From Chloroflexota bacterium (GTDB taxonomy: Bacteria > Chloroflexota > Anaerolineae > Anaerolineales > Villigracilaceae): 64,000 nt of DNA. The DNA lies in contig JACRLC010000033.1 of NCBI GenBank assembly GCA_016235425.1, positions 62,001 to 126,000 on the forward strand. The letters run 5' to 3'. Every line of letters begins with the position of its first letter. The stretch's first letter is position 1. Shown piece after piece: positions 8,805-48,712 of this stretch. Below the pieces are notes generated by a model. The model ran no database searches. It saw only the letters and a list, made by a program, of their open reading frames with translations, and was not told the DNA's origin. The position numbers were made by a program, and so were the translations under genes.

Positions 8805-8930
8805 TCATGCCAGCCTCAACTCTTTTTGAATGATTGGTGCAAGTTCAGGTGGTAGTGCCGACAATCCACCTTCATAGTCCAACTCGCGCACCTCCGCAGG
8901 GACACTCGAATCCGCCGCCATCTTCTGCGC
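8805..8930 (-). pseudogene. Third, divergent copy of the CHAT-gene 3' tail
   Basis: Minus-strand frame of 42 codons without a start. It opens with AQKMAADSSVPAEVREL, matching the penultimate part of the CHAT protein tail, then diverges to DYEGGLSALPPELAPIIQKEL before TGA at 8805. The divergent end still aligns in pattern with the other tails (LSALPPE versus LSSLPRE). It is most likely the remnant C-terminus of a related gene. It is separated from tail copy 2 by the palindrome at 8940-9035. Confidence 0.6.
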
Positions 8931-9035: not shown

Positions 9036-9225
9036 GACTCTTGATTAACTCCGCCCATTCCCTCGGCAGGGACGAGAGATCAACGTTCCTATCGCCGATC
9101 ATGATTCGCTGCAACACCCTCCCCAACTCGCGCATCTCCGCAGGGACACTCGAATCCACCGCCATCTTCTGCGCGGACTTGAAATACTCCTCCGCTTCGG
9201 GACGAACCATCCACGAATGGATCAC
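9028..9225 (-). pseudogene. Second copy of the CHAT-gene 3' tail
   Basis: 65-codon open frame whose core (9049-9203) duplicates the last part of the CHAT gene (9295-9450). By eye there are about nine mismatches in some 155 bases, and the encoded segment from EAEEYFKSAQKMA to LSSLPREWAE differs by a single residue (V for A). Its start lies in the palindrome at 9204-9283 and its end (LIKSQT) in the palindrome at 8940-9035. It has no ribosome-binding site or promoter of its own, so probably it is not a gene. Confidence 0.7.
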
Positions 9226-9283
9226 GAATACTCGAATAACGCGCGCCGATTCGTTTATTCGTGGTTATATTCGTGGATGGTTC
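9204..9283. repeat. Palindromic element (CCATCCACGAAT family) at the CHAT gene 3' end
   Basis: 80 bp with perfect 15-bp terminal inverted repeats GAACCATCCACGAAT / ATTCGTGGATGGTTC and an internal CACGAATACTCGAAT. A second member is at 33302-33379. It supplies the last codons (RTIHEYNHE) and the stop of the CHAT gene and separates tail copies 1 and 2. Confidence 0.85.
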
Positions 9284-12200
9284 TTTTCACCGCCTCCGCC
9301 CACTCCCTCGGCAGGGACGAGAGATCCACGTTCCTATCGCCGATCATGATTCGTTGCAACACCCTCCCCAACTCGCGCATCTCCGCAGGGACGCTCGAAT
9401 CCGCCGCCATCTTTTGCGCGGACTTAAAGTACTCCTCCGCCTCGGGACGCTTCTCCCTTGCAGATTGAATCGCCCCCGCGATGAACTGCTCGGCGGTCAT
9501 GCCTTCCTCTTCATCGGGTTGTTGTGCGAGCCATTCAGGAACTGGTTGCCCAATTTCCTTTCGCCATAGCGCATCGAACTTTTCCGCGCCAATTTCTTTA
9601 CGCCAATTTCTAAAATCAGAAACGATAGACCGCTGAAATTGGGGCTCTATTTTTAAGTCAGCCAACATCAACAAACTGATAAAGGCGCGAGGGATTGCCT
9701 TTTCATACATTCTGTTTACCCACAAGGCTCGACTCGATACATAAAAGTTATGTGCTGTGCCTTCTTTATCATCTATTTCTTCTGATATTTCTAATGCCTG
9801 ATCAAGAAGCTCCATCGCCTTTGATGGATTGTTACGAGATACATATGTATCTGCTAAATTAACTAATATTATAGATTTGTTTCTTAGGGCCCCAAGTAAA
9901 TTAACATTTTCAAGCGCCTGCTGATATAGCTCTATCGCTCCATCTAAATCTCCACGATCCTTTAGAATAAGTGCCATATCGCCTAGTTTAATAGAATCAC
10001 GCAAAAGGTTGCCTGTTTCCGCATTTGATGCTTGCTGGTGCAACTCTATCGCTCCATCTAAGTCTCCACGGTCCCTTAGAATATTTGCCATATGCCGTAT
10101 GATTATAGACCTACCTTCTGCGCCAGCGTCACCTAGTGTGTTGTAAATTTCACGAGCTTGTTGGTAATGCTTCATTGACTTATCCAACTCTCCGCGTAAA
10201 TTGTAAATATTTCCCATTTCAACCATTGTATTTGCCTTATCTTTTACGCCTTCATCCCCAAGTGCTTCAAAAATTTCCAATGACTGACGGTATAGTTGCA
10301 ATGCCTCATCGATATTTCCTCGTATTACATGTATGCCTGCTATTGCAAATAATGTTGCTGACTCGCCTTGAAGATAATGGTAAGCTCCGCTAATTTCGTG
10401 AGCTTTCTTTAGTAGATGCAACGCTTCATCGTATAAACCTAATAATTCAAGCACCTTACCAAGCCTGAATTGCATTAGCGATGTGTCCATGTCATATTTC
10501 ATTTCTGTTGCGTGCAACAAGTCAGGCAATGCCTCCGAAACAATTCTTGCCCAAAATGGCGTTGTTGTAACATATACTTCCGCCGCATGCGCTAAATTAT
10601 TCATGGATTTCCAGTAGTTTTCCTTGACGGTTTCAATATTTGTCAAGCGTTCTTTAGCAAAGAAACCCAACACTGGGTGTAAGCGGTACATGTAATAATT
10701 TTCATTTTCTGGCGATGAGGCAAGGGCGCGTTCTAGTAATCCACGTTCCCATAAAGCATGCAATGTGTTATTTGTGCGCTCTCTGATCTCTGAGAATTCC
10801 TCGATTGTTTGAGGAAAATAGTTTTCTAAAATAGGTGCGACGATAACATCCACAAAGAACGCAGTAAACACACTCAATCTTGAAATCGCAATTTGCAATT
10901 CCTCTCCCTCTTCATTCTTAGGCAAGTTATCCATCGAGAAGGCAAAGCACGCTCTCAAACTTGTATGACGGTCTTCTTCTGTCCACTGGTCGCTGGCTTT
11001 GGGTAAAAAGGTTTGCAGTTTCTCGATAAACTGTTCCAGTGATAATCCCGCCTGTTCTTCAAAGATCGGTGCGAGCAGTTGCAGGGCAAGCGGGAGTCCG
11101 CCCACAGCGGCGCTGAGTTTTTCCAAACCGCCGTCATCCACATTAATATCGCCCTGGCGCGTGCCAGCCTTTTCATAAAACAACCTACCGCCCATCGCGT
11201 CTTCCAGACCGCGAATTTCCTCCATCTCTCCTTCGCCAGACAGGGCGGTCTTCTCGCGGCTGGTGACGCACAAGGTCACACCTGCGGCGGGTAGACTCTG
11301 GAAGAACGCGTATAAACTCTTAGCGGTTTTCTTTTCATCGTTCGTGCCATTATCGCGGGCGTGAATGAGCGTTTCAAAATTATCCAATCCCAACAACGTG
11401 CGCGCCCTCGTCAACGCGTTCCGCACCAGCGCTTCGCGTTCCTTCGTGTCATTGGAGCAGGGCGAAGGCAAACCCAAAAAGCGTTCGACCCGTCCCAGCA
11501 CGCTTTCCAGCGACGGCAGTGGATCCAGCCCGATGGCGAGAGTCAACTCGAAGGACGGGGCGAAGCGCAGGAGCGTCTGCCAGAGCAAGGCGGTCTTGCC
11601 GATCCCGCCCGCGCCGTGCAGGGTCACTGTCAGCGGCTTCTTTCCTTCGAGCAGGCGTGTGCCAATGCGCATCAACTCGCGCTGGCGTCCGATCAATCCG
11701 CTGGCAGGGGAGGGCAGGTCGCTTACGTCGGCGGGACGGAACAGGCTCACGGTCTGCGCGGTCGCGCCGCGCCAAACCAATTTTCCCACTTCATCGGGGT
11801 GCGCCGCGTATAGCGCAATCATGCCGACCATGATCTCATGAAATTCATTCTCACGCTTCACCGCGCGCCGCGCCTGCCGCGCCGCCTCGGGGACGGCGTG
11901 TCCATGCGCGAGATAGTTGTAGAACTGTCCGCTGATGTTCGGCGCAAACGGATCGGGGAGATTGAACTGCATCCCCAATGCAAACGGGACTCCCGCCTTC
12001 GCCAATTCCCGCGCCAGATTGGAAAACTCGGTTCTTTCTGGGACTGCGGACTGGCACGCGCTCAAGAAGCCGATCCACGCCTTATCCTTGATCTCCCTCA
12101 CGAATTCGCGTGCTTCAAGCGGATTCGACGCCCCGTTCTCGCGCTCGAATAACAGCATCGCGCCGTCTTTTGTCGCCGCGCCGTGACCTGAGAAATGCGC

Positions 12201-12785
12201 GATCATCCCATTTTGGAATCTCGCCATTACGCTTTGCAACGCTTCGGGCGTCGCGGGTCTCAACTCGAGCATGTCAAACGGCGCGGCGCTTTTCTCGATG
12301 AGACGTTTCATCTCCCGCCATTCGCCGTCCACATCCAACGCGCGCATCGGCTCGCCGCTCAAATCCACCAGCGGGTTGGCAGGGATGAATAACAACGGCA
12401 CGCGATCCACTCCGTTTTTCATCCGCCCATTTGCAGGGCGCTCCTTCTCTGGCAAGGCGCGCACGAAAGCGCAATCTTCCACCACGTATTCTTCTTTGGC
12501 TTTGTTGTACGCGTACTCCCATGCCACGCCGTCTAATTCAGGAGATTCCAACACCAGCACAATCGTCCGCTCGGATTGTTTGGAAAGCACGTCGAATTCC
12601 GCTCGCGCCGCATCCCTGAACAGCGCGTCGAACAACTTCTCGCCATATACGCGCGGGTTCTTGTAAAAATCCTTCCACTCCTGCTCGGATTGACTCAAAT
12701 CCAGCAGGGAAAACTGGTGGCTTTCTTTCCCGTTGGCGCGTACACTGACTTGGTTGTTGGTGATGGTGAGGTGGAGGGTGAGCAT
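9255..12785 (-). CDS. CHAT protease - NB-ARC-type ATPase - TPR protein
   Basis: 1176-residue STAND-type protein. The CHAT (caspase-like) domain covers about residues 60-310, with the His in HFSGHG (H201) and the Cys in LSACQSA (C244) forming the expected dyad. The NTPase follows with a Walker A P-loop GAGGIGKT (391-398), a Walker B-like LLGLDNFETL and a sensor-like VTSREK. The C-terminal part from about 830 holds at least six TPR-like repeats (GDLDGAIELYQQAL type). This order suggests ligand sensing by TPRs, ATP-dependent oligomerisation, then proteolysis, as in known bacterial STAND immune or cell-death effectors; that role is inference. It is the last gene of an operon with a zinc-ribbon and a membrane protein. 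The final ten codons come from a palindromic repeat and two extra tail copies follow. Confidence 0.9.
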   Translation of the reverse strand: MLTLHLTITNNQVSVRANGKESHQFSLLDLSQSEQEWKDFYKNPRVYGEKLFDALFRDAARAEFDVLSKQSERTIVLVLESPELDGVAWEYAYNKAKEEYVVEDCAFVRALPEKERPANGRMKNGVDRVPLLFIPANPLVDLSGEPMRALDVDGEWREMKRLIEKSAAPFDMLELRPATPEALQSVMARFQNGMIAHFSGHGAATKDGAMLLFERENGASNPLEAREFVREIKDKAWIGFLSACQSAVPERTEFSNLARELAKAGVPFALGMQFNLPDPFAPNISGQFYNYLAHGHAVPEAARQARRAVKRENEFHEIMVGMIALYAAHPDEVGKLVWRGATAQTVSLFRPADVSDLPSPASGLIGRQRELMRIGTRLLEGKKPLTVTLHGAGGIGKTALLWQTLLRFAPSFELTLAIGLDPLPSLESVLGRVERFLGLPSPCSNDTKEREALVRNALTRARTLLGLDNFETLIHARDNGTNDEKKTAKSLYAFFQSLPAAGVTLCVTSREKTALSGEGEMEEIRGLEDAMGGRLFYEKAGTRQGDINVDDGGLEKLSAAVGGLPLALQLLAPIFEEQAGLSLEQFIEKLQTFLPKASDQWTEEDRHTSLRACFAFSMDNLPKNEEGEELQIAISRLSVFTAFFVDVIVAPILENYFPQTIEEFSEIRERTNNTLHALWERGLLERALASSPENENYYMYRLHPVLGFFAKERLTNIETVKENYWKSMNNLAHAAEVYVTTTPFWARIVSEALPDLLHATEMKYDMDTSLMQFRLGKVLELLGLYDEALHLLKKAHEISGAYHYLQGESATLFAIAGIHVIRGNIDEALQLYRQSLEIFEALGDEGVKDKANTMVEMGNIYNLRGELDKSMKHYQQAREIYNTLGDAGAEGRSIIIRHMANILRDRGDLDGAIELHQQASNAETGNLLRDSIKLGDMALILKDRGDLDGAIELYQQALENVNLLGALRNKSIILVNLADTYVSRNNPSKAMELLDQALEISEEIDDKEGTAHNFYVSSRALWVNRMYEKAIPRAFISLLMLADLKIEPQFQRSIVSDFRNWRKEIGAEKFDALWRKEIGQPVPEWLAQQPDEEEGMTAEQFIAGAIQSAREKRPEAEEYFKSAQKMAADSSVPAEMRELGRVLQRIMIGDRNVDLSSLPREWAEAVKRTIHEYNHE

Positions 12786-20603: not shown

Positions 20604-21986
20604 GTGATTCGCAAACTCATTGAGTTTTATCGTGACCCTGAATATTTCACCAACATTCGCAAGATCGCGTTGCCGATCATTGCCCAGCAATTTATGTTCT
20701 CTGCTTTGAACATGGCCGGTGTCGTTTTCGTTGGGCAAAAGGGAGAGACGGCGGTGGCCGCAGTGGGGCTTGCGAACCAGCTGGCATTCCTGCTCAACCT
20801 TGTGCATTTTGGGATCGTGAGCGGCGCGGCGATGTTTACTGCACAGTTTTGGGGGCGGCGCGATATTCCAAACCTGCGGCGCGTGCTTGGCCTGTGTTTA
20901 TTTCTTGCGGTTTCTGTGAGTTTGATTTTTCTCGCGCTCTCGCAATTCATGCCCGCAGGCATCCTGCGGATTTATTCCAACGACCCCGCCGTGATCGAAC
21001 TGGGCACAAATTACATCCGCATCTTTTCGTGGACGTTTATTTTTCTCGCGGTCACATTCAGCTACGCGTTCGTGATGCGGTCAACGGGCGACGTCAAAAC
21101 GCCAACGTTCATCAGTGTGGGCGCGCTGGCATTGAGCACGTTCCTTTCGTATTCGTTGATCTTCGGGAAATTCGGCCTGCCCGAAATGGGGATTGAAGGC
21201 GTCGCGACCGCCACGCTGATCGCACGCGCGCTGGAATGCCTGACCTTGCTCGCTATTGTTTACACACGCGCCGAATCGCCTGTGGCGGCGAACCTGCGCG
21301 ATCTGACGAGTATCAATCGCGGTTTTCTTGGGAAGGTCTTTCATTCGATGTATCCCGTGATCCTGAATGAGTTGTTCTGGTCGCTGGGCATTACCACGTA
21401 CAATGCGATTTACGGACACATCAGCACAGATGCCATCGCAACGATCAACATTATCGGCGCGGTCGAACAGGTTGCATCTGTGATTTTTATCGGCATTTCC
21501 AATGCCACTTCTGTTTTGGTCGGCAATCGCATTGGCGCGGGAGAAGAGCACGAAGCCTACCTTTACGCGGGGCGCTCGCTTGGGCTTGGATTCGCGGGCG
21601 GCATTCTTATCGGCCTGATCCTTCAACTCGTCAAAGCACCGGTGCTTTCGTTATTCAACGTTTCACCCGAAGTCATCGAGAATGCAAGCCGGGTGATGAT
21701 CATCGTGAGCCTGTTCATCGCCGTCCGCATCAACAACATGACCATCGTCGTCGGCATCCTGCGCGCGGGCGGCGACACACGCTTCTCACTTTTCCTCGAT
21801 GGCATCATCATTTGGCTGGTCGGCGTTCCGATGGCCGCGCTTGGCGCGTTCGTATTTCATCTCCCCGTCTATTTTGTTTATCTGTGCGCGATGAGCGAAG
21901 AACTCGCCAAATGGCTGATTGGCATCAACCGCTATTTCTCGCGCAAGTGGATCAATAATTTGGCCGCGCAGGTGGAGGGGATTTAG
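20604..21986 (+). CDS. MATE family multidrug/cation antiporter
   Basis: 460-residue inner-membrane exporter with about 12 hydrophobic helices in two homologous halves, the usual MATE length. Typical elements are the opening IALPIIAQQFMFSALNMAGVVFVGQKGETAVAAVGLANQ, FWGRRDIPNLRRVLG, and the second-half INIIGAVEQVASVIFIGISNATSVLVGNRIGAGE. It exchanges Na+ or H+ for drugs or metabolites. The start is GTG at 20604 with GGAGG five bases upstream. Its stop codon lies inside a long perfect hairpin. The neighbours do not hint at a substrate. Confidence 0.93.
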   Translation: MIRKLIEFYRDPEYFTNIRKIALPIIAQQFMFSALNMAGVVFVGQKGETAVAAVGLANQLAFLLNLVHFGIVSGAAMFTAQFWGRRDIPNLRRVLGLCLFLAVSVSLIFLALSQFMPAGILRIYSNDPAVIELGTNYIRIFSWTFIFLAVTFSYAFVMRSTGDVKTPTFISVGALALSTFLSYSLIFGKFGLPEMGIEGVATATLIARALECLTLLAIVYTRAESPVAANLRDLTSINRGFLGKVFHSMYPVILNELFWSLGITTYNAIYGHISTDAIATINIIGAVEQVASVIFIGISNATSVLVGNRIGAGEEHEAYLYAGRSLGLGFAGGILIGLILQLVKAPVLSLFNVSPEVIENASRVMIIVSLFIAVRINNMTIVVGILRAGGDTRFSLFLDGIIIWLVGVPMAALGAFVFHLPVYFVYLCAMSEELAKWLIGINRYFSRKWINNLAAQVEGI

Positions 21987-22027
21987 CAGTTGTGCCGGCA
22001 GTTCAACTGCCGGCACAACTGCTAAAT
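21981..22027. terminator. Very long perfect hairpin over the MATE stop codon
   Basis: A 23-bp stem with a one-base centre (TTTAGCAGTTGTGCCGGCAG and its complement), then CTTTT. It includes the stop TAG at 21984-21986. It may act as a terminator and may itself be an inserted palindromic element. Confidence 0.7.
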
Positions 22028-22028
22028 C

Positions 22029-29102: not shown

Positions 29103-31976
29103 ATGCCTACACCCGAAGAACTCGCCCGCGTAAACATTGACAAGCAACTGACCGCCTGCGGTTGGACTGTGCAATCACGCGCGGAGATGAATCTCTACGC
29201 AGGTCGTGGTATTGCTGTGCGGGAGTTTCCGCTATCCACAGGCGAAGCGGATTATCTTTTGTTCGTGGATAAAAAAGCCGTGGGGGTGGTAGAGGCGAAG
29301 CCTGAGGGTGTGACGCTTTCGGGGGTGGCTGATCAGGCGGCGAAGTATTCGGTGGGATTGCCCAATAACATTCCGCATGTGACTCTGCCGCTGCCGTTTT
29401 TGTATGAGAGCACGGGGGTGGAGACGTTCTTCCGTGATGAGCGCGACCCTGAGCCGCGGTCGCGGAGGGTTTTCACGTTTCGTCGTCCTGAGGAGTTGGC
29501 AGATTGGATTGACGTAGGGATGGGGCTTGCCCCCGTCCAAGATGCCGCGTACACCCAAAGGGCAGGGGCAAGCCCTGCCCCGACGACATTGCGCGGAAGA
29601 TTGAAAGATATGCCGACGCAATTCCCGTTGATCACCACGGGCTTGTGGGGTGCGCAGGTTGAGGCGATCAATAATCTTGAGAAATCGTTGGCGGAGAATC
29701 GTCCGCGGGCGTTGATTCAGATGGCGACGGGGTCGGGGAAGACATTTACGGCGGTGAGTTTTGTCTATCGGCTGATCAAACATGCGAAGGCGAAGCGCGT
29801 CTTGTTTTTGGTCGATCGCAATAATCTCGGTCGGCAGGCGTTCAAGGAGTTCGATCAATATCTCACGCCCGATGATGGACGCAAATTCACCGAGTTGTAC
29901 AACGTCCAGCATTTGCAGAGCAATGTGCTCGATTCGGTCAGCAAGGTGCATATCACTTCCATTCAGCGGTTGTACTCGATGTTGAGCGGCGAGCCTGAAT
30001 TCGATGCGGAAAATGAAGAGGGGTCGCTGTTCGAGATGGGCGCGGCGCTCGATTCCCAGCCGCCGAAGGAGATCCGCTACAATCCAAACTTCCCGATTGA
30101 GTATTACGATTTTATCGTCGTGGACGAGTGCCATCGCTCGATCTACAATCTGTGGCGCGGTGTGCTCGAATATTTCGATGCCTTCCTGATCGGGCTGACC
30201 GCCATGCCTTCGAAGCAGACCTTTGGTTTCTTCAAGAAAAATCTCGTGATGGAGTATCCACGCACCCGTGCGATTGCCGACGGCGTGAATGTGCAGGGCG
30301 AGGTCTATCGCATTCGCACGCAGATCTCGGAGCAGGGCAGTACAGTGGAAGCGGGATATTTTATCGGCAAGCGCGAACGCATGACGCGCGCCGAACGCTG
30401 GGAAAAACTGGATGATGACTTTGAATACGACCCGCGTCAACTCGACCGTGAAGTTGTTTCCGTTGACCAGATACGGACTGTGCTCCGAACCTATCGCGAT
30501 AAACTGTTTACCGAGATGTTCCCTGAGCGCGAGATCGTCCCGAAGACGTTGATCTTCGCCAAAGACGACAGTCACGCGGAAGACATCGTGCGGATCGCGC
30601 GTGAGGAATTTGGCAAGGGCGATGAGTTCTGTCAGAAGATCACCTATCGCTCCACAGGAAAAAAGCCCGAAGATTTGATCAGCGACTTCCGCAACAGTTA
30701 TCATCCGCGCATTGCCGTGACCGTGGACATGATCGCCACAGGCACAGACATCAAGCCGCTCGAAGTGTTGTTGTTCATGCGCGCGGTGAAGTCGCGCTTG
30801 TTGTTCGAGCAGATGCTGGGACGCGGCACACGCGTCGTCAGCCAGACCGAGTTGCAGAACGTGACGTCGGATGCAAAGACAAAGGATCGCTTCGTGCTGA
30901 TTGATGCGGTCGGCATTGTGGAATCGGAACTCGCCGACCCGCAGACACTGGAACGCAAACGGAGCGCGTCGCTCAAGCAGTTGCTCGAGTCGGTGGCGGT
31001 GGGCGTGACGGATGAGGATACGCTCAGTTCGCTGGCGGGGAGACTCGTCAGACTGGCAAAAAGTTTGGGGACGGCAGAGCAGGCTGAGGTCAAAGAAAGA
31101 AGCGGCGGACTGTCGTTGGCAGATCTATCCAATCGCCTGCTGGATGCCATTGATCCAGATAAAATCCAGGAGGCGGAATCCCCAAATGCTTTGATCAATG
31201 CGGCGGTGCGACCGCTGGCGAGCAACCCCGAACTGCGGGCGCGGCTGACGGAGATGCAGTCGCGGCATGAGCAGGCGATTGACGAGGTGAGCCAGGATGC
31301 GGTGATCGAGGCGGGGTTCACGGATGAGGCGTCGCGGCTGCTGGTGCGGTCGTTTGAGGAGTACATCGCCGAGCATAAGGATGAGATCACGGCATTGGAG
31401 ATTATTTATTCGATCCCACAGGGTAGGGGCGGGTCTGCAATGAAAGCAAAGGCGTCGCGCGAAGATGCGTCACGTCAGACGGAGTCGACTCGCCAACCTG
31501 GGAGACCCGCCCTTACGTTCGATGTGTTGAAGCAGTTGGCGGAGACTTTGCAACAGCCGCCGCGGAGTTGGACGACGGAGGCGTTGTGGCGGGCGTATGC
31601 CCAGTTGGAGCGTGACCGCGTGCGCGGGGCAGGGACGCGGCGCGTGTTGACGGATCTGGTATCGCTGGTGCGTCATGCGGTGCAGTTGGACGATGAACTG
31701 GTGCCGTATCCTGAACGCGTGCAGAGACGTTATGCTGATTGGCTCGCTGCACAACAGAGCGAAGGACGGGCGTTCACATCCGAACAACGCTGGTGGCTGG
31801 ATCAGGTGGCGACGCACATCGGAGTCAACCTTGAGATCCATGCCGAGGATTTCAATTACGGCGAGTTCTTCAATCGCGGCGGACAGGTTGCGGCGTTGCG
31901 CACGTTTGGTCCGCAGTTGAAGAGTTTGTTGGATGAGTTGAATGAAAGGCTGAATGTTGACAGGTTAGAAGGTTGA
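29103..31976 (+). CDS. hsdR: Type I restriction enzyme, R (motor/nuclease) subunit
   Basis: 957 residues, EcoEI-like. The N-terminal PD-(D/E)xK nuclease reads GEADYLLFVDKKAVGVVEAKPEG. Helicase motifs follow: Walker A MATGSGKT (207-214), DECH box (341-344), LTAMP, ATGTDIKPLEVLLFMRAVKSRLLFEQMLGRGTR. The helical C-terminus would contact the methyltransferase. With HsdM and HsdS it cuts unmethylated DNA after ATP-driven translocation. There is no ribosome-binding site, and the start 4 bp after the TIR stop suggests coupling. Two palindromic repeats lie inside in frame (29514-29583 and 31423-31516), placed in linkers between nuclease and helicase and in the C-terminal region, so the protein may still be active. 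Confidence 0.93.
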   Translation: MPTPEELARVNIDKQLTACGWTVQSRAEMNLYAGRGIAVREFPLSTGEADYLLFVDKKAVGVVEAKPEGVTLSGVADQAAKYSVGLPNNIPHVTLPLPFLYESTGVETFFRDERDPEPRSRRVFTFRRPEELADWIDVGMGLAPVQDAAYTQRAGASPAPTTLRGRLKDMPTQFPLITTGLWGAQVEAINNLEKSLAENRPRALIQMATGSGKTFTAVSFVYRLIKHAKAKRVLFLVDRNNLGRQAFKEFDQYLTPDDGRKFTELYNVQHLQSNVLDSVSKVHITSIQRLYSMLSGEPEFDAENEEGSLFEMGAALDSQPPKEIRYNPNFPIEYYDFIVVDECHRSIYNLWRGVLEYFDAFLIGLTAMPSKQTFGFFKKNLVMEYPRTRAIADGVNVQGEVYRIRTQISEQGSTVEAGYFIGKRERMTRAERWEKLDDDFEYDPRQLDREVVSVDQIRTVLRTYRDKLFTEMFPEREIVPKTLIFAKDDSHAEDIVRIAREEFGKGDEFCQKITYRSTGKKPEDLISDFRNSYHPRIAVTVDMIATGTDIKPLEVLLFMRAVKSRLLFEQMLGRGTRVVSQTELQNVTSDAKTKDRFVLIDAVGIVESELADPQTLERKRSASLKQLLESVAVGVTDEDTLSSLAGRLVRLAKSLGTAEQAEVKERSGGLSLADLSNRLLDAIDPDKIQEAESPNALINAAVRPLASNPELRARLTEMQSRHEQAIDEVSQDAVIEAGFTDEASRLLVRSFEEYIAEHKDEITALEIIYSIPQGRGGSAMKAKASREDASRQTESTRQPGRPALTFDVLKQLAETLQQPPRSWTTEALWRAYAQLERDRVRGAGTRRVLTDLVSLVRHAVQLDDELVPYPERVQRRYADWLAAQQSEGRAFTSEQRWWLDQVATHIGVNLEIHAEDFNYGEFFNRGGQVAALRTFGPQLKSLLDELNERLNVDRLEG
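29514..29583. repeat. Palindromic repeat in frame inside hsdR (first)
   Basis: GGGGCTTGCCCC and GGGGCAAGCCCTGCCCC arms, bounded by GTAGGG. It encodes about residues 138-161 (VGMGLAPVQDAAYTQ...ASPAPT), between the nuclease and helicase domains, without disturbing the frame. Confidence 0.8.
31423..31516. repeat. Palindromic repeat in frame inside hsdR (second)
   Basis: GTAGGGGCGGGTCT and AGACCCGCCCTTAC ends (one mismatch), 94 bp, encoding about residues 774-805, rich in Ala, Arg and Ser. The frame continues normally after it into TFDVLKQLAETL. Confidence 0.8.
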
Positions 31977-32044
31977 ACCCTTCGACTAACTCAGGGCAAG
32001 CGTTGGAAGGTTCAAACGTTCAAAAGTTTATGTGGTGATGATTG

Positions 32045-33292
32045 ATGATGGTAACGATGAATAATGACGGTCAAAATGGACGCTCCCTGCCTGATGGTTG
32101 GGAATTATCAACATTAGGAGAGTCTTGCGTTGTTGTTTTAGGTCAATCGCCATCATCGGATACTTACAATACGGAAGGCGTTGGCTTGCCTTTTTATCAA
32201 GGCAAAACAGAATTTGGTGACCTATATCCGACGCCCGAAAAATGGTGTTCATTGCCAAAGAAGTTAGCGGAAAAAGATGACATCTTGATTTCTGTTCGTG
32301 CTCCCGTCGGTCCAACAAATCTATGTCCAGAAAAATCTTGCATTGGTCGTGGGTTGGCAGCGCTTCGCCCAAAGAATATGCCAACCAAGTATTTTCTGCA
32401 TTATCTTCGTTACATCGAAAAAGAATGGGATAGCAAGGCGACAGGAACAACCTTCAAAGCAATTACTGGTGATGTTTTACGAAACCAAGAAATTCCACTT
32501 GCTCCACTCGACGAGCAAGAGAGGATTGTGAACCGAATCGAGGAATTGCTCAGCGATTTGGATGCAGGCGTGGCGGCGTTGGAACGAGTCCGCGCAGGGT
32601 TGAAACGCTACAAGGCGTCCGTGCTCAAGGCGGCGTGTGAAGGAAAGTTGTTTGAGAATAAGAAAATAGAAAGTGGTCAGTTGCCAGAAGGGTGGCAGTG
32701 GGCAAAGTTAGAAAGTCTATTGTCTGAGTCTTTGGCTAATGGTAGATCCACTCAAACCACAATTGATGGATTTCCTGTTCTAAGACTTACAGCATTGAAA
32801 AATGGAAAAATCGATCTCCGCGAACGCAAAATTGGTGCATGGACAAAAGAACAGGCTCAAAATTTTCTAGTCAAGAACGGTGATTTTTTTGTGTCACGAG
32901 GAAATGGTTCCTTACATTTGGTTGGTCGTGGTGGGCTTGTAGAACAAGAACCTGATGAAGTTGCATATCCAGACACCTTGATTAGAATTCGGGTATCTCC
33001 TAATATCTGTGATATCAAATATCTTAGAACTGTTTGGGACTCTCCTTTAGTTCGAAACCAAATAGAAACAACGGCTCGAACAACAGCAGGAATTTATAAA
33101 ATCAACCAAAAAGATTTGGGTAACTTTATTATTCCCCTTCCTCCGTTGGACGAACAGCGGCGGATTGTGGCTGAGGTCGAGCGGCGGCTGTCGGTGGTTG
33201 GGGAGGTCGAGTCCGCGGTGGAGGTGGGTCTGGCGCGGTCCGCGCGGCTGAGGCAGTCTGTGTTGAGGTCCGCTTTTGAGGGGAAGTTGTGA
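32045..33292 (+). CDS. hsdS: Type I restriction-modification specificity subunit
   Basis: About 415 residues with two target-recognition domains, each ending in a conserved helical spacer. The first half runs from LPDGWELSTLGESC to LDEQERIVNRIEELLSDLDAG; the second from LPEGWQWAKLESL to LDEQRRIVAEVERRLSVVGEVE. It sets the DNA sequence recognised by HsdM and HsdR. The start is uncertain (tandem ATGs at 32045 and 32048, or 32057), as no clear ribosome-binding site is present. The stop at 33290-33292 is followed by a palindromic element and then by a second copy of the hsdS 3' end, so the present terminus (SAFEGKL) was probably created by insertion. Confidence 0.92.
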   Translation: MMVTMNNDGQNGRSLPDGWELSTLGESCVVVLGQSPSSDTYNTEGVGLPFYQGKTEFGDLYPTPEKWCSLPKKLAEKDDILISVRAPVGPTNLCPEKSCIGRGLAALRPKNMPTKYFLHYLRYIEKEWDSKATGTTFKAITGDVLRNQEIPLAPLDEQERIVNRIEELLSDLDAGVAALERVRAGLKRYKASVLKAACEGKLFENKKIESGQLPEGWQWAKLESLLSESLANGRSTQTTIDGFPVLRLTALKNGKIDLRERKIGAWTKEQAQNFLVKNGDFFVSRGNGSLHLVGRGGLVEQEPDEVAYPDTLIRIRVSPNICDIKYLRTVWDSPLVRNQIETTARTTAGIYKINQKDLGNFIIPLPPLDEQRRIVAEVERRLSVVGEVESAVEVGLARSARLRQSVLRSAFEGKL

Positions 33293-33301
33293 TGAATAAA
33301 A

Positions 33302-33379
33302 ACCATCCACGAATTTTGTCCACGAATATTCGAATGGAAGGCGGCGCATTCGTGCATTCGCGGCTTGTTCGTGGATGGT
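33302..33379. repeat. Palindromic element (CCATCCACGAAT family) at the hsdS 3' end
   Basis: 78 bp with exact 12-bp ends ACCATCCACGAA / TTCGTGGATGGT and an internal CACGAATATTCGAAT, closely similar to the element at 9204-9283. It separates hsdS from a duplicate of its last ~95 bp. Confidence 0.85.
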
Positions 33380-33405
33380 CTCTGGGCGCGGCAAAGGTCA
33401 ATGTG

Positions 33406-33507
33406 ATGCGGGAGGTCGAGTCCGCGGTGGAGGTGGGTCTGGTCCGCGCGGGGAGGTTGAGGCAGTCCGTGCTGAGGTCCGCTTTTGAGGGTAAACTATC
33501 ATCATGA
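33406..33507 (+). pseudogene. Duplicate of the hsdS 3' end
   Basis: The frame reads MREVESAVEVGLVRAGRLRQSVLRSAFEGKLSS and stops at 33507. It repeats the last 30 residues of hsdS with few changes (LARSARLRQ versus LVRAGRLRQ). Its stop TGA overlaps the ATG of the next gene (ATGA at 33504-33507), the typical coupling of operon genes, so this copy probably carries the ancestral junction. It is unlikely to be translated as a separate protein. Confidence 0.7.
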
Positions 33508-34331
33508 CAGAAAACTATCCACAACCGATTGCGCAATTGCTCACCCTGGGCGAAACGCGCATGCACGATGGACGTAATTATTTGAAAATGGGCTTTACCA
33601 GTGAGCATATCCCAGACTTGATCCGCTTGGTGGAAAATGAAGAACTGCGCGACATGCCCTGGGATGAAGACGGGAATGTGCCGCCGCAAGTTTACGCGCA
33701 GGTCCACGCCTGGCGTACCCTTGCCCAATTAGGTGCGGCAGAGGCTGTCCCATCTTTTATTGGATTGCTACACTTCATAGACGAAGACGACGATGACTTT
33801 GTCGGCGAAGAAATTCCCAGGATGCTTGGACAATTGGGCTCGCCCGCCATTGAAGCCTGTCATGATTATCTGGCTGATATAAACAACAACCTGTTTTCGC
33901 GCGTCGGCGCTGGACATGCTCTCTCTGAAATTGGACAGCAACACCCCGAAACGCGAGAAGCCTGCATTCAGGCGCTCATGTCCACTTTGCAGGATTATCA
34001 AAAAGACGATGAGACTGTCAACGCGTTTACGTTGTCCTACCTGGCAGAGTTAAAGGCAGTTGAAGCCGCGCCTCTTGCAGAAGAAATCTTCAAAGCGGAT
34101 CGCGCCGAATTGGAGATTGCTGGTGATTACGAAGATTATCAAATCCGCGTCGGACTGCTGGAGAAACGCCTTACCAAGTCAAAATTTCGCAGCATTACCG
34201 ACCTGGAGGTTAAACGACTTCTTGCAGAAAGTTCACTTACCGAAAAGAAGCGCACTTCCGAAAAAGAGAAGAAGGAAAAAAACAAACGAAAACAGGAAAA
34301 GAAGGCTCGCAAACGGCATAAGAAGAAATGA
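33504..34331 (+). CDS. HEAT-like repeat protein inside the type I RM operon
   Basis: 275 residues, not a standard Hsd subunit. Paired helices such as YAQVHAWRTLAQLGAAEAVPSFIGLL, EEIPRMLGQLGSPAIEACHDYL and RVGAGHALSEIGQQHPETREACIQAL form HEAT/PBS-lyase-like repeats. An acidic loop (IDEDDDDF) interrupts them. The last 35 residues are extremely Lys/Glu-rich (KKRTSEKEKKEKNKRKQEK), possibly nucleic-acid binding. It starts in the ATGA overlap with the duplicated hsdS tail and precedes hsdM by 67 bp. An accessory scaffold or regulatory role is inferred from position only. Confidence 0.75.
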   Translation: MTENYPQPIAQLLTLGETRMHDGRNYLKMGFTSEHIPDLIRLVENEELRDMPWDEDGNVPPQVYAQVHAWRTLAQLGAAEAVPSFIGLLHFIDEDDDDFVGEEIPRMLGQLGSPAIEACHDYLADINNNLFSRVGAGHALSEIGQQHPETREACIQALMSTLQDYQKDDETVNAFTLSYLAELKAVEAAPLAEEIFKADRAELEIAGDYEDYQIRVGLLEKRLTKSKFRSITDLEVKRLLAESSLTEKKRTSEKEKKEKNKRKQEKKARKRHKKK

Positions 34332-34398: not shown

Positions 34399-35904
34399 AT
34401 GAGCACACAATCCTCCACCATTGTTCAACGCCTCTGGAACTACTGCAACGTCCTGCGCGACGACGGCTTGTCCTATGGCGACTACGTCGAGCAGCTTACC
34501 TACCTGCTATTCCTCAAGATGGATTCAGAAGGCAGTGCCATGCTTGGCCTGCCCAGTTCCATTCCAGAACAATTCAACTGGGCAAGTTTGCAGCGTTTGG
34601 ACGGCGACGATCTGGAAACTCATTACCGCGCCATCCTGACAGGGCTGGGTCAGGGCGCAGGGTTGATCCCCGTCATTTTCCGCAAGGCGCAGAACAAAAT
34701 CCAGGACCCTGCCAAACTCCGCCGCCTCATCGAACTGATTGACGGCGAAACCTGGATCGGGCTGGATATTGACGTCAAAGGCGATATCTACGAAGGTCTG
34801 CTCGAAAAGAACGCGCAGGATACCAAGAGCGGAGCAGGTCAATACTTCACGCCGCGTCCGCTGATCAAGGCGATTGTGGATGTTATGCGTCCCGAACCTG
34901 GTAAGACCATTTGCGATCCCGCCGCAGGCACGGGCGGCTTCCTGCTTGCTGCGCATGATGCCATCGCGCACAATAACACCCTCGACCGCGATCAGTGGGA
35001 TCACCTGCGACATCAAGCCTTGCATGGCTGGGAGATCGTCGATAACACCGCGCGCCTGTGCGTGATGAATTTATATCTGCATGGCATTGGTTCCAATGGC
35101 GATGGCACAGAACTGGGACGCAGTCCCATTCATGTTTCTGACAGTCTCGCGTCTCATCCTGGCGAATACTTTGATATGGTGCTCACCAATCCGCCCTTCG
35201 GCAAGAAGTCCAGCGTCACCTTTGTGACCGACGAGGGCGAGATCAAACGCGAGACTCAGAACATTGTCCGCGAGGATTTCTGGACTTCCACCAGCAACAA
35301 GCAACTCAATTTCGTCCAGCATGTCAAAAATATCCTGAACATGACGGGCAAAGCGGCCGTTGTTGTGCCTGATAACGTGCTCTTTGAAGGCGGGGCTGGC
35401 GAAGTTGTCCGCCGTAAACTCTTGCACGAGTGCGATGTCCATACACTTTTACGATTACCCACAGGAATCTTTTACGCTCAGGGCGTCAAAGCCAACGTTC
35501 TCTTCTTTGACCGTAAGCCTGCCTCTGAAACCCCGTGGACGAAGCAACTCTGGATCTACGACCTGCGCACCAACATGGATTTCACCCTCAAGACAAATCC
35601 GCTGGCGCGCGGAAATCTCGACGACTTCGTGGAATGTTTCCATGTTGATAACCGCTTCGAGCGCACCTCGACCTGGTCGCCGTCCAATGAAGTGGGCCGT
35701 TGGCGAGCATTCACCTACGAGGAACTCCTCACTCGTGACAAGGTCAATCTTGATATTTTCTGGCTCAGGGACGAGTCACTGGAAGACTCTGCCAATTTAC
35801 CTGATCCGAATGTGCTTGCAGCGGAAATTGTGGAGGACCTACGGTCCGCACTAACGCAGTTTGAATCCATTGAAGAAGAATTGACCGATGGGGACGTGGA
35901 TTGA
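34399..35904 (+). CDS. hsdM: Type I restriction-modification DNA methyltransferase subunit
   Basis: 501-residue N6-adenine methyltransferase. The N-terminal helical HsdM_N domain (QRLWNYCNVLRDDGLSYGDYVEQLTYLLFLKM) is followed by the SAM-binding motif I DPAAGTGGFLL (from residue 173) and catalytic motif IV NPPF (from 264), plus GAGQYFTPRPLIKAIVDVM. It modifies the site chosen by HsdS. The gene order R, S, HEAT-like, M differs from the usual R-M-S. The ATG at 34399 lies only 67 bp after the previous stop, so it may share that transcript. It closes the defence cluster. Confidence 0.95.
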   Translation: MSTQSSTIVQRLWNYCNVLRDDGLSYGDYVEQLTYLLFLKMDSEGSAMLGLPSSIPEQFNWASLQRLDGDDLETHYRAILTGLGQGAGLIPVIFRKAQNKIQDPAKLRRLIELIDGETWIGLDIDVKGDIYEGLLEKNAQDTKSGAGQYFTPRPLIKAIVDVMRPEPGKTICDPAAGTGGFLLAAHDAIAHNNTLDRDQWDHLRHQALHGWEIVDNTARLCVMNLYLHGIGSNGDGTELGRSPIHVSDSLASHPGEYFDMVLTNPPFGKKSSVTFVTDEGEIKRETQNIVREDFWTSTSNKQLNFVQHVKNILNMTGKAAVVVPDNVLFEGGAGEVVRRKLLHECDVHTLLRLPTGIFYAQGVKANVLFFDRKPASETPWTKQLWIYDLRTNMDFTLKTNPLARGNLDDFVECFHVDNRFERTSTWSPSNEVGRWRAFTYEELLTRDKVNLDIFWLRDESLEDSANLPDPNVLAAEIVEDLRSALTQFESIEEELTDGDVD

Positions 35905-47073: not shown

Positions 47074-48270
47074 ATGAGGTTTAATGAAATGGCTACACGC
47101 AGCAATGTTGGCTTTTTTAACTTTGACGACTTAACCTGGCCTGAAGTCGCGGACCTGCCGCGCGACATACCTCTCGTACTTCCGCTCGGATCATCCTACG
47201 ACCTGGATTTGCTCGCTGACCAATTGAGTAATCCTCCCCGAATCGGACTCCTGCCATCCTTTCCATTCGGCTGGCGCGGCAGTGGATTGGAAGTACCTGA
47301 CCAGGTTTTTGCTCAATATATTTCAAACCTGCTCGACAGCCTGCGCGATGATGGGTTTTCGCGCGTCTATTGTCTCGCTTCACAGGGATTTGACCCTCAA
47401 TCTACATTCATCCTTCAGCATTCATCCGCCATCCTTCGCTTACCTCACGCTTCCCATTATTTACCAATTACTCAATTACCACCTGACAGTGAGCGCGGTA
47501 AAGTGATCCTCATTCCAATCGGCCATACCGAACAACACGGCTATCACCTGCCCCTCTCGGTTGATACCATCATTATTGATGCCATAGCAAGAGGCACTGT
47601 TGCTAAAGTGCCTACACGCAGTTGGGCGATGCCGGTCATGCCTTATGGGGTCAGCACACATCGCTCCTCGTTTGCCGCGACGATGAACGCAGGCGGACGA
47701 GCCTTTGAGGACTTTTGGGTTGCAGTAATTGATGTGCTTGCATCGCGTGGCTTTGACCGCTTCTATTTCATGAGCGGGCATGGCGGCAACACCTCATTTT
47801 TAGTCAATGTTGTGAAGTATGCAGGAGAACGTCATCGCAGAATTTTCTGCGCAACGGCTTGGTTGCACACATCGGGAAAGATCGGCGCGGCCGCGCTGGA
47901 AAAATATCGCACATCCCCCATCGGCGGCATGGGGCACGCCTGCGAACTGGAGACCGCATATTTGCTCCATCTGCGCCCGGACCTCTGCCACATGGAACGC
48001 GTGGTGGACGAAATGGATTTTGTGTCCACGCCTGATTACTACATGGATTGGATCGAAGGCGGCTCACTCATCGCGAATCCGCCCTGGGATGACGATACGA
48101 AGACCGGCGCATACGGCGCGGGCAGTCACGCGACTGCTGAAAAAGGCCGCCTCTGGCTGGAGGCGGCCATTGAAGAGAAAGCCGCGCACGTGGAGGAGAT
48201 CCACGAACAGCATGAGCGGCGCGAGAAGAGACGAAATGAAGGCTACGGCTTGTGGGGAAAGTTGCAGTAG
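47074..48270 (+). CDS. Creatininase-family amidohydrolase with a degenerate N-terminal duplicate
   Basis: 398 residues. The C-terminal half (from about 148) is a creatininase-type metallohydrolase: LIPIGHTEQHGYHLPLSVD (metal Glu, His, Asp), SGHGGNTSF and GHACELET. The N-terminal ~140 residues look like a second, inactive copy: NFDDLTWPEVADLPRDIPLVLPLGSS matches the opening of the family, and LLPSFPFGW...LLDSLRDDGFSRVYCLASQG the middle, but the metal ligands are lost. The true family members are about 250 residues. The substrate (creatinine or another cyclic amide) is unknown. The start at 47074 follows AAGGAG at a suitable distance. It lies downstream of the S9 peptidase, possibly cotranscribed. 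Confidence 0.85.
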   Translation: MRFNEMATRSNVGFFNFDDLTWPEVADLPRDIPLVLPLGSSYDLDLLADQLSNPPRIGLLPSFPFGWRGSGLEVPDQVFAQYISNLLDSLRDDGFSRVYCLASQGFDPQSTFILQHSSAILRLPHASHYLPITQLPPDSERGKVILIPIGHTEQHGYHLPLSVDTIIIDAIARGTVAKVPTRSWAMPVMPYGVSTHRSSFAATMNAGGRAFEDFWVAVIDVLASRGFDRFYFMSGHGGNTSFLVNVVKYAGERHRRIFCATAWLHTSGKIGAAALEKYRTSPIGGMGHACELETAYLLHLRPDLCHMERVVDEMDFVSTPDYYMDWIEGGSLIANPPWDDDTKTGAYGAGSHATAEKGRLWLEAAIEEKAAHVEEIHEQHERREKRRNEGYGLWGKLQ

Positions 48271-48546: not shown

Positions 48547-48712
48547 ACGCTTCTCCTTTCTCAAACGTACGAACAACCTGTAAAAGCCTGCCCCACTACA
48601 GAATAGCACGAAAAGGGACATGCTTCAATACGCATGCATGGCGCGAGAAGAGACGGAACAAAGGTTATGGCTTGTGAGGAAAGTTTAGGTGAGCGACAAC
48701 TGTGATCGTTGA

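Follow-up and report, generated by a model that had tools for sequence, protein, structure and literature searches.

The hsdS gene of a type I restriction operon in a Chloroflexota bacterium is followed by a small palindromic element with an hsdS tail on either side, and sequence comparison indicates that the two tails differ in ancestry. A CHAT gene in the same 64,000-nucleotide stretch of DNA (the whole stretch analysed, hereafter the window) is arranged in the same way, with a copy of that element between its tails. The explanation that we lean towards for both loci is tail displacement, in which a gene would have received a new end by recombination and kept its old end behind the element. 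As the tail-element-tail layout recurs at hsdS and CHAT genes of three genera and with two element families, an exchange of the gene end is more likely than its simple duplication.

The hsdS operon and its two tails

The operon carries, in this order, hsdR, hsdS, a HEAT-repeat gene and hsdM, all assigned by Pfam and all on the plus strand. Its first gene, hsdR (29103..31976), matches ResIII and EcoEI_R_C. The specificity subunit hsdS (32042..33292) is an open frame of 416 amino acids with two stretches of Methylase_S and a TGA stop at 33290-33292. It is separated from hsdM (34399..35904; N6_Mtase and HsdM_N) by the HEAT-repeat gene (33504..34331; HEAT_2). Eight bases past the end of hsdS lies an imperfect palindrome (33301..33382) with inverted 12-nt arms at 33302-33313 and 33368-33379, a member of a hairpin family that we call E; it scored 76.4 bits against the family model R1 (C9:95301-95382). 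The tail attached to hsdS at present, T1 (33194..33292, plus strand), recurs behind the element as T2 (33403..33507, plus strand). The repeat, 33194-33285 against 33403-33494, spans 92 nt without gaps at 85% identity, and a BLAST comparison of the flanks of the element with each other returned 85 nt at 87% (expect value 5e-27). The duplicated tail around a palindrome, as reported in the preliminary description, is therefore real.

T2 ends in ATCATCATGACAG, where the TGA shares bases with the ATG that starts the HEAT gene at 33504. In a relative (G072), a homologue of the HEAT gene (51% identical) immediately follows a lone hsdS tail, and an E-family element is absent there. The retained ATGA overlap and this lone tail support the earlier proposal that T2 holds the older junction, and we read T2 as the displaced tail. 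A mini-ORF (33292..33507, plus strand) reads in frame through E and T2, with 71 amino acids before its stop, and overlaps the hsdS stop as TGATG and the following start as ATGA. Since this frame is open throughout, translational coupling from hsdS to the HEAT gene could persist. Among 54 distinct copies of E, none but the one at hsdS is open in all six frames.

The CHAT locus

The second locus is a CHAT/NB-ARC/TPR gene on the minus strand (9255..12785; ORF and Pfam), whose stop lies inside a copy of E at 9204..9283. This copy has perfect 15-nt arms, can be aligned with 13 other copies and scored 81.8 bits (C9:71205-71284). It lies between two 156-nt copies of the CHAT tail, T1 (9294..9449, minus strand) and T2 (9049..9204, minus strand), which share 94% identity. 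Membership in the same family and the same position relative to the tails, both noted in the preliminary description, were confirmed. Beyond T2 there is a palindrome unlike E, P2 (8940..9035), recognized as an inverted repeat with the arms AGACCTGACAGGTTT. It is followed by a third copy of the CHAT tail, T3 (8879..8930, minus strand; 52 nt), which runs on into a different C-terminus, so that the whole array reads tail-E-tail-P2-tail. P2 has five exact-arm copies in the genome; tail copies flank two of them, and there is no flanking duplication at the other three.

Tail arrays in related genomes

At least two hsdS tails within 500 nt occurred in 4 of the 24 genomes with hsdS-tail matches (G000, G102, G117, G138), and at least two CHAT tails within 1.2 kb in 6 of the 34 genomes with CHAT-tail matches (G000, G005, G122, G128, G158, G167). 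For G005, G122 and G167 the CHAT copies were counted from the match list, with the sequence read for G005 and for parts of G167. G138 carries four consecutive hsdS tails behind an hsdS of 467 codons, with one spacer present twice, and G102 carries two behind an hsdS of 401 codons and two more 900 bases further. The preliminary description had tied the doubled tail to the element, and this holds only in part: the tails of G138 and G102 are separated by other spacers, and the E model had no match in those tail-array stretches. Two spacers that we folded from these genomes gave z scores of -0.6 and -1.0 and no hairpin, which argues that hairpins are not required for tail arrays. A motif from one spacer occurs a single time in the genome of the window.

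Other relatives carry the hairpins themselves. In G117, which belongs to another genus, an E-family element lies at an hsdS frame of 445 codons whose attached tail is of another type, and the joint between E and T2 equals that of the window for 13 identical bases past the inverted arms. Behind another hsdS type, E occupies the same place in G008 and at an hsdS gene on contig C82 of the window's own genome, where a shift of one base puts the tail (L131) out of frame with the gene body. As G008 shows the same layout at its hsdS gene within one contig, an assembly artefact is unlikely. At the CHAT genes, G128 reads tail-P2-tail-P2, with a P2-tail joint that by eye is nearly that of the window, and G158 reads tail-E-palindrome-tail-E.

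Among the genomes compared, we did not find a pair of strains from before and after a tail event, and hsdS had no match in viral contigs. In G072 (L147, contig C72), what by eye is an HsdR-like start is fused in frame to the hsdS tail just before the HEAT homologue; judged from its sequence, this fusion is the deletion scar of a restriction operon. A further tail that by eye resembles that of hsdS (L127:1080-1247, G000:C51) lies about 600 bases from the tail pair flanking E on that contig.

Ancestry of the attached and displaced tails

The preliminary description had treated the two tails as copies of each other around E. This is not supported: the differences between tails are mostly synonymous, and the hsdS tail at the rear clusters with that of another genus. 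Between the CHAT tails T1 and T2, 8 codon changes are synonymous and 1 is not (P 1e-4), and the tails behind a gene fragment at L262 differ by 10 synonymous and 2 other changes (P 7e-5). For the hsdS pair the counts are 6 against 3 in the aligned part and 8 against 3, plus the stop codon, across the whole tail. Summed over eight tail pairs, 42 changes are synonymous and 29 are not, with about 18 synonymous changes expected; a second set of six partly overlapping comparisons gave 19 to 11, with 9.2 expected. No such bias was seen at L272a (2 to 5), in G158 (2 to 5), in G128 (9 to 13), in G008 (1 to 1) or between CHAT T2 and T3 (0 to 2). As the tails are just 7-52 codons long, every single codon test is weak. 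The counts cover tail pairs other than the one on C51, which has a frame break, the gene starts on C62 and the pair at 48210. No identical T1/T2 pair was present among the tail pairs compared.

The nearest relatives of the tails point the same way. The hsdS T2 is 94.3% identical to the single, working tail of an hsdS in another genus (G044, 427 codons) and 83.9% identical to T1; in a FastTree phylogeny of 16 hsdS tails, it groups with the G044 tail at a support of 0.87. The tail phylogeny covers tails other than those of G158 (equal to that of G122), G113, G016, G117 T2, C51 and C82. The CHAT T1 is closer to a tail of G167 (96.2%) than to T2 (94.2%), and the nearest tail to CHAT T2 is its own T1 (94.2%), barely above G135 (93.6%). 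The attached and displaced ends therefore differ in ancestry at hsdS by both tree and identity, and at CHAT by the codon pattern and the nearer kinship of T1 to G167. Given the synonymous bias and the foreign kin of hsdS T2 and CHAT T1, exchange between lineages is, on these comparisons, needed at hsdS and likely needed at CHAT.

A proposed route for tail displacement

Under tail displacement, T1 and the small dispersed element behind it would have arrived together from another lineage and, as the tails are homologous, have entered the resident gene by recombination. The resident gene would thereby have gained a functional end, while T2, the end it had before, would have been left behind the element, joined to the next gene. 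Serial displacement of this kind would be the simplest account. The likeliest route, we infer, would be a single crossover with a small circle of tail and element, or a one-sided variant, in which a fragment that ends at the hairpin on its far side integrates by homology. The hairpin may have acted as a border of the incoming piece. Whole element-tail units may later have been swapped between arrays, which would account for arrays of mixed composition, for instance tail-E-tail-P2-tail at the CHAT locus. A dedicated role for E alone in tail displacement is not supported.

A broader version is tentative and, in our judgement, rather doubtful: element-tail units may travel as cassettes between genomes and renew 3' ends, with the hairpin marking the far end. 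Homologous recombination would pass the units on, and the targets would be defence genes and other accessory genes.

The element family and alternative explanations

Each half of E contains three blocks of the CGAAT type with variable spacers, and an alignment of 14 copies shows near-invariant paired blocks and variable loops. Folded as single-stranded DNA, the hsdS copy had a z score of -3.84 (1 of 200 shuffles as good) and the CHAT copy one of -7.64 (0 of 200). A model built from the 14 copies gave 51 matches in the 5.0-Mb genome of the window (both strands counted, expect values up to 0.1) and matches in 22 of the 41 genomes searched, this genome included. E is short, dispersed, hairpin-forming and present in many copies, as are MITE- and REP-like repeats. 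Y1_Tnp, the sole transposase family sought, had four matches in the genome, and E is absent from all four loci. We rejected a structured RNA as the identity of E: no base pair is altered on both sides in the 14 copies and most pairs are invariant, so covariation support is absent, and Rfam had no match to E or within the window.

Seven of 23 places of E in its own genome are at gene stops, against 164 of 1150 random placements, which amounts to a weak tendency. Five copies of E lie together at G000:C76:44985-46067 (L130), and the first of them supplies the final codons and the stop for a TPR frame of 80 codons. In G015, 14 of the 20 copies read are, as judged by eye, nested within a larger inverted-repeat element. 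These larger elements (L082-L095) have the palindrome as core, and since several copies are identical, E has probably moved there recently. Searching by exact arm for an empty copy of the inverted-repeat element around E (C18, C87) returned none.

Such mobility lends some weight to the strongest alternative, which we nevertheless consider unlikely, that E inserted into a gene end, duplicating 50-160 bp of its target, and that the tails, identical at first, later diverged or were overwritten by allele exchange. Where tails are involved, the repeats lie within about 40 bases of E on both sides, and on contig C62 a duplicated gene start shows the same arrangement (head-E-head-E-head). A BLAST-visible direct repeat flanks E at 11 of the 23 places in its own genome; among these, two repeats are merely 16 and 28 nt long, two (L130) are adjacent copies of E rather than gene tails, and two (L125, L126) lie in non-coding repeat. 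In relatives, 3 of 41 places had a flanking direct repeat by BLAST and 38 had none, and in G015, where E was apparently mobile, none of the 20 places had one, a search that a duplication of a few bases would escape. Shifted control windows gave a direct repeat in 15 of 348 cases, several of them within the same arrays. That insertions of E generally come with a long target duplication is not supported. Moreover, the synonymous bias and the foreign kin of hsdS T2 and CHAT T1 would demand a second process, and tail copies are also separated by elements of unrelated families. Nonetheless, an ordinary insertion that duplicated its target, with allele exchange afterwards, would look much like tail displacement.

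Less probable still is that E already lay behind the gene and that unequal crossing-over or slippage at the hairpin built the arrays locally. This would account for array growth and for repeats of single units, as in the gene-start array on C62 and in the G138 array with one spacer twice, but it leaves unexplained both the different ancestry of the two tails and the persistence of the old junction between the rear tail and the next gene. Finally, it is very improbable that a second complete hsdS once stood behind the first and was deleted down to its tail, which would yield two diverged tails, as the deletion in G072 left one fused to an HsdR start, since such deletions must have left about equal lengths at both hsdS and CHAT and have ended at a small element in each case, and a double hsdS locus was not seen in the stretches read.

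Comparison with known systems

Tail displacement has its closest parallel in the rhs genes, for whose tips Jackson et al. 2009 (PMC2935791) describe C-terminal displacement by homologous recombination, with circular intermediates proposed. There, too, a new C-terminus is joined by recombination, the old end is shunted downstream and arrays of leftover ends result. An old C-terminus downstream of the new one is likewise what the ATGA junction of T2 and the lone tail in G072 indicate. In contrast, the rhs tips described there are non-homologous alternatives, whereas the hsdS and CHAT tails are homologous, 84-94% identical and encode nearly the same protein; a small dispersed element between the tails and the genes concerned, hsdS and CHAT, also set our loci apart from that account.

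The proposed crossover also has a laboratory counterpart in Escherichia coli. After conjugation, according to PMC3240628, 56 of 60 clones gave a PCR product for duplication of a homologous end, and 14 sequenced duplications of 109-950 bp were ascribed to a single crossover of a circle. Homology-facilitated illegitimate recombination or circle crossover likewise integrates a short fragment and leaves a homologous-end duplication, but that study concerns a laboratory construct, with no natural element or gene-tail array, unlike the hsdS and CHAT loci. Transformation can also create duplications through repeats, of 100-900 kb (PMC3784515).

Like E, the REP/REPIN and MITE palindromic repeats (see PMC3116915 and PMC10969869) are short dispersed hairpins at or near gene ends. 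This likeness is one of general features. To our knowledge, tail displacement is no part of the definition of REP/REPIN or MITE repeats.

Phase-variable hsdS loci with silent fragments (see PMC6265443 and PMC4948785) also have extra hsdS pieces beside hsdS. Unlike those, the extra piece here consists of the last ~30 codons with no target-recognition domain, which does not fit a silent piece for a phase-variable switch, and T2 should therefore not alter specificity. Published gene-tail arrays separated by elements were not found among the literature matches listed.

If tail displacement is correct, leftover tails would document allele replacement in a form legible from a single genome and would show in which order events took place at defence loci. 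When a gene end is duplicated around a repeat, this is not necessarily a target-site duplication. If element-tail cassettes also exist, short hairpin repeats would act as borders of gene exchange.

Hairpins between other tail copies

We scanned the window, together with the first 20 kb or less of 40 other contigs of the same genome (775 kb in all), for direct repeats that are 35 bp or longer, have a spacer of 15-450 bp and do not lie inside one ORF. A hairpin with an arm of at least 12 was present between 7 of 16 such pairs, and outside the window between 3 of 11. In a relative with no match to the E model at 0.001 (G014), 0 of 9 pairs in 376 kb were spaced by a hairpin. The pairs are not independent, as arrays were counted several times in both genomes; the third CHAT tail takes part in two of the seven pairs spaced by a hairpin, and another of the seven (L272 4250/4566) is an element plus flank repeat, not a gene tail. 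A true tail pair at L272 4425/4613 has an imperfect hairpin with 13 of 14 arm bases and was not counted by the test.

The cases beyond the window are tails behind gene fragments, not whole genes, and the fragments ahead of the L262 and L272 tails span 89, 116 and 100 codons between stops. The L262 fragment has no Pfam match, and one palindrome family there supplies its stop codon. L272 holds two DUF488 fragments, which match the rear half of DUF488, with P2 and another family as spacers. Besides E, hairpins of a second family thus lie between tail copies at CHAT genes and those of two more at gene fragments, and together with the other spacers they rule out E as the sole spacer in tail arrays.

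Two further features of the window were noted. The tail of a creatininase-family gene is repeated (48210-48263 and 48632-48685; 54 nt, 83%) with a small minus-strand ORF and no palindrome between the copies, and an inverted repeat with a perfect 24-nt arm (21980-22028) lies at the end of the ORF 20604-21986.
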